Source of the DNA: Mycolicibacter heraklionensis
GTDB lineage: Bacteria; Actinomycetota; Actinomycetes; Mycobacteriales; Mycobacteriaceae
DNA length: 64,000 nt
NCBI GenBank assembly: GCA_001673575.1
Contig: LZME01000115.1
Location: 18,793-82,792, forward strand
Direction of reading: 5' to 3'
Position numbers and translations under genes: made by a program. The stretch's first letter is position 1. The number at the start of each line of letters is the position of its first letter. Below are positions 61,410 to 64,000 of this stretch, one piece after another. The notes below the pieces were generated by a model, which was not told the DNA's origin, made no database searches, and saw nothing but the letters and a program-made list of their open reading frames with translations.

Positions 61410-62669
61410 TCAGTGCCCCCCAGCGCGCGCGGCGGGGGACGGGATCGGGATGGTGGCGGTGACGGCGGTGCCGGCCCCGGGCCGCGACCGGATGTTGAGC
61501 CGGCCACCGACCAGCTCGGCGCGCTCGGCCATCGACAGCACCCCGTAGCCGCCCATCTCGTCGCCGCCCACCGGGTGCTCGAAGGTGTCGAAACCCACCC
61601 CGTCGTCCACGATCTCCAGCCGCGCCGTGTCGGGGTCGGCGGTGATCGCGAATCCCAGCCGCACCGTCGTCGCGGCCGCGTGTTTGACCACGTTCTGCAG
61701 GCCTTCCTGCGCGATCCGGTACAGCGCCAGCTCGATGTGCTCGGGCAGCCGGGTCTCGGCCAGGTCCAACTCAATCGTGAGTTGCGGGATCGACTGGGCG
61801 AGGCTGGCCAGGCCACCGGACAGGCCCAGATCGTCGAGCACCGGTGGCCGCAACCCGCTGATCGCCACCCGGGTCTCCTGCAGGGTCAGCCCGGCGAGTT
61901 CACGTGCGGCCTCCAACTGCGCCGACGCCTCGTCCGGGTCGTTGCCGACCGCGCGGGCGGCGGCATCCAGCCGGTAGGACAGCGTCACCAGCCGCTGGGA
62001 GATGCCGTCGTGGATGTCGCCGGCCAACCGGCGCCGCTCGATCTCCTGGGCTTCGATCACCTGCTCGACGAAGAGTTCGTGGGCACGTTCGCGCGCCACC
62101 AGCTGCCGGTGCAGCCGGGCCTGGTGCATGGCACCGGCAATGAGCCGGCCGATCACCCGCAGCAGTTCGACGTCGCCGGGGGTGAACTCGCGGCGCGTCA
62201 CGGTGTGCACGTTGAGCACACCCACCAAGCCGCCTGGATCGGTCTCCATCGGCACCGACACCATCGAGGTGAAGTCACGCCCACGCAGCGACTCGATCGG
62301 CAGGTAGCGCGGATCGGACTCCTTGTTGTCGCTGATCACCACCGGCTCGCGGTGACGCGCCACCCAGCCCGACACCCCCGATCCCAGCGGCAGCCGGATC
62401 TTGCCCACCTCGGTGTCGAACGGTGGGGTCGCACCGGTCAGGGTCAGGGAACGCTCGGTGTCGTCGAGGACGTGCACGAAGCAGACGTCGGTGCCGGTGG
62501 CCGCGGTGATCATCCGGGCCGCCGCGGCGGCCAGCGGTTCCACTCCCGGACCGCTGGAGGCGGCCTGGATGAGCTCCCGCAGCAGCGCCAGCTCGTGGTT
62601 GGCGTCGACGAAATCCCGCACCGCCGTGGTCTTGCGGGGGCGGGAGCGCGGGACGCTGTTGGAGCTCAC
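61410..62669 (-). CDS. GAF-domain sensor histidine kinase (NarL/DevS type)
   Basis: 419 residues, soluble. GAF domain about 30-185 (ending GVLNVHTVTRREFTPGDVELL), HisKA_3 dimerisation with phospho-acceptor His220 in LAGDIHDGIS, and HATPase domain with the N-box (YRIAQEGLQNVVKHA), DDGVGF and GYGVLSMAERA. No transmembrane segments. It overlaps the response-regulator gene by four bases. The signal is unknown; relatives sense redox state or small ligands. Confidence 0.94.
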   Translation of the reverse strand: MSSNSVPRSRPRKTTAVRDFVDANHELALLRELIQAASSGPGVEPLAAAAARMITAATGTDVCFVHVLDDTERSLTLTGATPPFDTEVGKIRLPLGSGVSGWVARHREPVVISDNKESDPRYLPIESLRGRDFTSMVSVPMETDPGGLVGVLNVHTVTRREFTPGDVELLRVIGRLIAGAMHQARLHRQLVARERAHELFVEQVIEAQEIERRRLAGDIHDGISQRLVTLSYRLDAAARAVGNDPDEASAQLEAARELAGLTLQETRVAISGLRPPVLDDLGLSGGLASLAQSIPQLTIELDLAETRLPEHIELALYRIAQEGLQNVVKHAAATTVRLGFAITADPDTARLEIVDDGVGFDTFEHPVGGDEMGGYGVLSMAERAELVGGRLNIRSRPGAGTAVTATIPIPSPAARAGGH

Positions 62670-63316
62670 CGGTAGATGCCTTCGCGCAGCGCGGTGGCCA
62701 CCGCGCCGGTCCGGTCGGACACCCCGAGCTTGCGGTAGATCGAGCGGAGATGGGATTTGACCGTCTCGTCGCCGATCACCAGCTTGGTGGCGATCCCGCG
62801 GTTGGACAGCCCGCTGACCATGTAGGCCAGGATCTCACTTTCCCGTTGGGTGAGCCCCTGGCGGGCGCCGGGCCAGAACTCGTCGCGTTGCAGTCGTGCG
62901 GCGGTGCCGGCCGCCCGCGCTGCCAGTCCGGGGTCGATCACCGTCTCACCGCGGTGGGCCAACTCGATCTGATGCACCAGGTCGTCACTGCTGATGCTCT
63001 TGAGCAGGTAGCCCGTCGCGCCGACGCGCAGCGCCTCGAACAGGTACTGCTCGTCGTCGTAGACCGAGAGCATCACGACCTTGCGTTCCGGGTCGCGTTC
63101 CCGCAGCGCCAGGCAGAGGTCCAAGCCGCTCTCACCGCGCATCCGCACATCACACAGCACGATGTCGGGGTCGGTCTCGGCGATCACGGCCATGGCCTGT
63201 TCGGCGTTGATCGCCTGGCCGACCACTTCGATCCGGTCGGCGAACGCGGTGAGCATGGCCCGCAGGCCTTCGATCACCATCTCGTGGTCGTCGACGAGGA
63301 CCAGGCGCACGGGCAT
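62666..63316 (-). CDS. NarL/LuxR-type response regulator
   Basis: 216 residues: receiver domain with acidic pocket (VLVDDHE), phospho-acceptor Asp56 (VLCDVRM) and Lys in LLKSISS, and a C-terminal LuxR-type helix-turn-helix (LTQRESEILAYMVSGLSNRGIATKL ... VKSHLRSIYRKL, read in two blocks). Cognate partner of the kinase with which it overlaps (ATGA). A CCCCC-AAT-GGGGG inverted repeat lies upstream at 63372-63384 and may be a site for autoregulation. Confidence 0.94.
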   Translation of the reverse strand: MPVRLVLVDDHEMVIEGLRAMLTAFADRIEVVGQAINAEQAMAVIAETDPDIVLCDVRMRGESGLDLCLALRERDPERKVVMLSVYDDEQYLFEALRVGATGYLLKSISSDDLVHQIELAHRGETVIDPGLAARAAGTAARLQRDEFWPGARQGLTQRESEILAYMVSGLSNRGIATKLVIGDETVKSHLRSIYRKLGVSDRTGAVATALREGIYR

Positions 63317-63554
63317 AGCAAGACAATAGGGACCGTCGACTGAACCCGGCGGTGATTACCCCGCCCAGATCCCCCCAATGGGGGAGGACACCCGCTCCCG
63401 TTTCCGGCACGGTGTCTGTTATGCAGATCACAACTGAACTCGCGACATGGACCGGTCCTGGCCGCCCGTTCTGGTGGGACCAGGCGCACCCGGATGCCGA
63501 GGTTTACCCCCTACAAGCGGTGATCTTCGATCTTGACGCGCTCGCCGACGCCGA

Positions 63555-63631
63555 CGGCGAGCCCCGCTCGGGCCTGGTGGACCTGGTGCTGAGCCTGTTC
63601 TCCAGTGGTCTGTGGATCGCGGTGGTGGGCG
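63555..63631 (+). repeat. Inverted repeat, left arm (77 bp)
   Basis: Every base matches the reverse complement of 63924-64000. It encodes the GEPRSGLVDLVLSLFSSG part of the HAD protein. The repeat may extend past the window end. Confidence 0.95.
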
Positions 63632-63923
63632 ACCACCCGCTGCGCCTGCAACTCCCGGCAGCCGTTGGCCAGCAGCCCGTCGTAACGGCTGGAACCCGCA
63701 TAGATCACCGGCAGGCCGATCGCGGCCGCGGTGCGAGCCCCGGACTCGTAGCCGGCGATCACCAGCGCCTCCCCGGCCACAATGCCGAGCTCCCACAGCG
63801 CCAGCCGGTAGAGCTCGGCGTCCCCGGCGGGGCCGGTCAGGTCGTCGGCGCTCACCACGGTCTCGGCCATGCCGTCACCGATCAGTTCCCGCACCCGCTC
63901 CTGCACCCAGGCGCGCGGGCCGG

Positions 63924-64000
63924 CGCCCACCACCGCGATCCACAGACCACTGGAGAACAGGCTCAGCACCAGGTCCACCAGGCCCGAGCGGGGCTCGCCG
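63924..64000 (-). repeat. Inverted repeat, right arm (77 bp or more)
   Basis: Exact reverse complement of 63555-63631, reaching the last base of the window. The 292-bp spacer 63632-63923 holds the next part of the HAD gene in reverse. Confidence 0.95.

Follow-up and report, generated by a model that had tools for sequence, protein, structure and literature searches.

Contig C115 of the source assembly, a draft of 161 contigs and 4.72 Mb, is 82,792 bases long, and the window, the 64,000-base stretch of DNA analysed here, represents its bases 18793-82792, with position 64000 as the final base of the contig. The 5' part of an HAD-like hydrolase gene lies close to this end (Table 1). The sequence at 63555-63631 was found to be the exact reverse complement of that at 63924-64000, with arms of 77 bp and a spacer of 292 bp, and on its minus strand the spacer had an open frame in phase with the protein begun on the plus strand, which it continues. 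Both observations had been made in the original prediction and were borne out by the sequence. No other perfect inverted repeat of at least 30 bp was present within the 64-kb window, and a perfect repeat of 77 bp is far beyond chance (a repeat search of 62000-64000 reported the same pair as 86 nt, 97%). The inverted copy reaches the last base of the contig exactly, as is expected of a fold-back artefact; the proposal to look beyond 64000 for a repeat that runs on therefore led nowhere, since nothing follows that base.

Table 1. Features at the end of contig C115 (positions in the window).
Feature	Coordinates	Strand	Basis
5' part of the HAD-like hydrolase gene; start codon at 63421	63421..63631	+	Collinear with G022 and G016 up to the junction
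Left arm of the exact 77-bp inverted repeat; taken as the genuine copy and putative branching k-mer	63555..63631	+	Exact pair; 77-base shared contig ends
GGGCG microhomology at the apparently false junction 63631/63632	63627..63631	.	5 bases common to near and far sites of relatives
292-bp 3' part of the HAD-like gene, reversed, most probably by fold-back	63632..63923	-	G022 96%, G016 85%, strand opposite to 5' part
Right arm; probable artefactual duplicate of the left arm, with its end at the final base of C115	63924..64000	-	Exact repeat; contig-end survey

Comparison with the HAD gene of related mycobacteria had been suggested as a check, and proved informative. Nucleotide searches with 63421-63923 against 41 genomes (the source genome and 40 relatives) gave matches in 25, and outside the source genome the whole query was matched only in G022 and G016, two congeneric relatives that are each represented by one contig; matches in the remaining genomes were short and partial. 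In both relatives the query splits into two oppositely oriented pieces (96% and 92% in G022; 85% and 85% in G016), and one open frame spans the gene. As placed in these relatives, the junction lies about 10 codons upstream of the stop codon. Scanning contigs with the intact G022 protein, a scan that may omit records of the window's own genome, detected at least 21 loci. Among the listed loci, 14 showed a protein identity of 82% or higher, all from Mycolicibacter or Mycobacterium, and each of these 14 mycobacterial loci matched the query protein over its whole length or almost all of it (residues 1-177 in 13 and 1-171 in one); the other seven listed loci showed 28-41% identity. The G022 protein scored 24.0 bits against Pfam HAD_2 (PF13419; gathering cut-off 23.8) and did not reach PF00702 (17.0 bits; cut-off 26.4), and the predicted HAD-like family assignment is marginal. 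It is most likely that the chromosome carries one ordinary, uninterrupted HAD-like gene, as the relatives do.

Inverted repeats around a segment, the other orientation of which gives one continuous frame, are the geometry of an invertible switch, in which a recombinase would flip the 292-bp spacer between the 77-bp repeats and turn the gene on or off. This likeness extends to the known phase-variation switches. However, the inverted pair of arms was not found at the gene region of either G022 or G016, each of which carries a single copy of the arm and one orientation of the gene, and in the source assembly nothing follows the right arm, which ends with the contig. Among the matches listed in a literature search on invertible phase-variation switches, none mentioned Mycolicibacter.

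We surveyed further contig ends of this assembly for similar structures. From 73 contigs, 119 of the 322 contig ends were fetched, and removal of 30 ends of 15 contigs that consisted mostly or wholly of N left 89 ends from 58 contigs. An end was counted as a fold-back if it closed with a perfect inverted repeat, 60 bp or longer, whose internal copy lay within 2.5 kb. Ten of the 89 readable ends qualified, eight of them with arms of exactly 77 bp (C14, C18, C23, C40, C45, C68, C70 and C115); C115 was sampled because of the finding itself, and without it 9 of 88 ends qualified independently, seven of them with exactly 77 bp. An eleventh inverted end, that of C51, had an arm of 28 bp. Fold-back ends are not all alike, because two arms were longer than 77 bp (85 bp in C1, 1-449, and 114 bp in C67, 1-599) and the terminal 77-bp repeat of C40 (1-1762) enclosed a spacer of unusual length, 1,608 bp. 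Inverted repeats of this form and of at least 60 bp were absent from internal positions in 1,081,154 bases of the assembly (a figure that includes some overlap between a few stretches) and from 312,705 bases of G022.

The length of the arms has a counterpart in the assembly as a whole. Exactly 77 terminal bases were shared with another contig at 18 of the 89 ends, and at least 40 at 27 of the 89, with partners sought among the fetched stretches only; the 77-base matches lay sometimes at the end of the partner contig and sometimes inside it. Because exactly 77 terminal bases recur at so many ends, 77 looks like the k of the assembler, and thus apparently a property of the assembly and not a recombinase site. 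A k of 77 is usual for SPAdes, and contigs of de Bruijn assemblies of this kind share k-mers at their ends in the same manner. The arm of C115 has this same length, and differs from such shared ends in that the stretch it shares is its own reverse complement. A switch would have to accommodate this agreement in length, as well as the occurrence of the same form at nine other contig ends and at no internal place examined. With the form also missing from two relatives, the on/off switch offered in the original prediction did not survive, and we regard it as extremely improbable, the least probable of the readings considered here.

We conclude instead, with high confidence, that the apparent flipped segment is a fold-back assembly artefact at a contig end, a chimeric origin that the original prediction had listed among its options and that both the contig-end survey and the uninterrupted relatives upheld. 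The inverted segment is very probably not a real biological feature. Followed against the relatives, C115 tracks the gene as far as 63631 and then switches, at an inverted microhomology of 5 bases, to the other strand at a point some 300 bp further along. From there it reads the gene backwards, and it ends precisely 77 bases into sequence that it has already used. The jump could have arisen from fold-back (snap-back) chimeric reads formed during library preparation, in which the 3' end of a strand would pair with a short complementary stretch upstream in the same strand and then be extended. A de Bruijn assembler with a k of 77, the value suggested by the shared contig ends, might then follow the chimeric path if the true continuation were poorly covered or met a dispersed repeat, and would cut the path where it re-enters used sequence. 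We infer both the library step and the assembler. A related process is described in PMC10908179, where the PDSM model attributes chimeric library reads with inverted repeats of genomic DNA to partial single-strand pairing. The inverted-repeat or palindromic artefact reads treated there resemble the present case in containing genomic inverted repeats in chimeric molecules, but they come from capture libraries of human tumours and bear on the calling of small variants, whereas the trace in the present case consists of contig ends in a bacterial draft assembly. No paper on contig-end fold-backs was among the matches listed in our literature search. A perfect inverted repeat of a common k-mer length at the last base of a contig should hence not be equated with a switch, and draft genomes assembled in this way contain spurious breaks in genes where contigs end.

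The microhomology at the junction was judged against G022 and G016. A GTGGT/ACCAC pair had been proposed at this point and was not borne out; inverted microhomology against G022 consisted of five exact bases, GGGCG, at 63627-63631. At random paired sites the mean exact run was 0.39 bp, and a run of at least 5 bp had P = 0.002. Exact runs at the other junctions compared with G022 were 1 base for C18, 2 for C23, 2 for C45, 3 for C70 and 6 for C68, so that four of the six junctions had short exact runs when read against this diverged genome. The short runs may reflect the divergence of G022; for C18, the microhomology was 1 base against G022 and 7 bases by a second contig of the source assembly itself, C28. 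Over the last 20 bases, matches numbered 12 for C18, 15 for C23, 8 for C45, 13 for C70, 11 for C68 and 9 for C115, with a chance mean of 5.6. Two further candidates were rejected. A longer snap-back stem was sought as similarity of the spacer's two inner ends to each other, compared with 20,000 random pairs, and none of the 10 fold-back ends was significant (lowest P = 0.09, for C1 and C70; P = 0.20 for C115). A special hairpin was sought by single-strand DNA folding of the intact G022 region, which gave z = -1.49 and was equalled or surpassed by 5 of 100 shuffles.

Five of the other fold-back ends (C18, C23, C45, C70 and C68) were compared with G022 and G016, leaving out C1, C14, C40 and C67. 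All five loci were uninterrupted in both relatives, and in both the end piece and the inner piece of each contig adjoined on opposite strands. The two pieces overlapped on G022 by 77 bp for C18, C23 and C45, 76 bp for C70, 96 bp for C68 and 93 bp for C115, where values above 77 include alignment running past the junction. Two fold-back ends had a counterpart within the source assembly. Contig C64 contains the same arm and spacer as C14 and departs 9 bases past the spacer (193 bases in common = 77 of arm + 107 of spacer + 9), and C28 contains those of C18 and departs 7 bases past it (215 bases in common = 77 of arm + 131 of spacer + 7). Read from their sequence, C64 and C28 are competing branches present in the assembly, and they give the microhomology from the genome itself.

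These competing contigs also bear on a real fold-back inverted duplication, fixed in the chromosome of the strain, with the contig stopping where it re-enters the duplicate. The junction microhomology and the inverted geometry would fit such a template-switch event, and a real repeat, once re-entered, would halt a de Bruijn assembler just as an artefactual one would. Nevertheless, this reading would call for nine or more additional events, every one of them at a contig end and not one at an internal position of the bases examined, and for two of them uninterrupted contigs compete. We therefore hold a fixed duplication to be very improbable. From the fold-back duplication named in the original prediction, the geometry with microhomology was retained, as that of the causal molecule or graph path, and the fixed chromosomal state was not. 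Still less probable, in our estimate, is that the strain carries fold-back duplications at microhomologies, both in this gene and in nine or more further places, in some or all of its cells, through a mutational process.

Unlike for C14 and C18, the readable assembly yielded no second contig with the gene's true continuation or its true 3' end. The genes that lie downstream in G022 pick up again at C147:190, and bases 1-189 of C147 do not match G022. This stretch recurs at C114:40766-40953 (96%) and at C95:47816-48001 (75%), and a dispersed repeat close to the gene's 3' terminus is therefore a likely cause of the break. Its minus-strand reading presumably resembles the mycobacterial 13E12 repeat family; a Pfam search with a 56-residue piece from the start of C147 gave no match.

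In G022 the gene following the HAD-like gene encodes a YkuD (L,D-transpeptidase) protein (L026 2928-3623). Its best match in the source assembly was a 76% copy on another contig (C77:25268-25939), and the source genome may have lost or replaced the gene, or the gene may lie in the gap. A 34-bp match (91%) was observed between C147 242-275, near the start of that contig and beside the following gene, and the reverse complement of L026 2822-2855, at the 3' end of the G022 HAD-like gene; the two copies bracket the YkuD gene as a short direct repeat.
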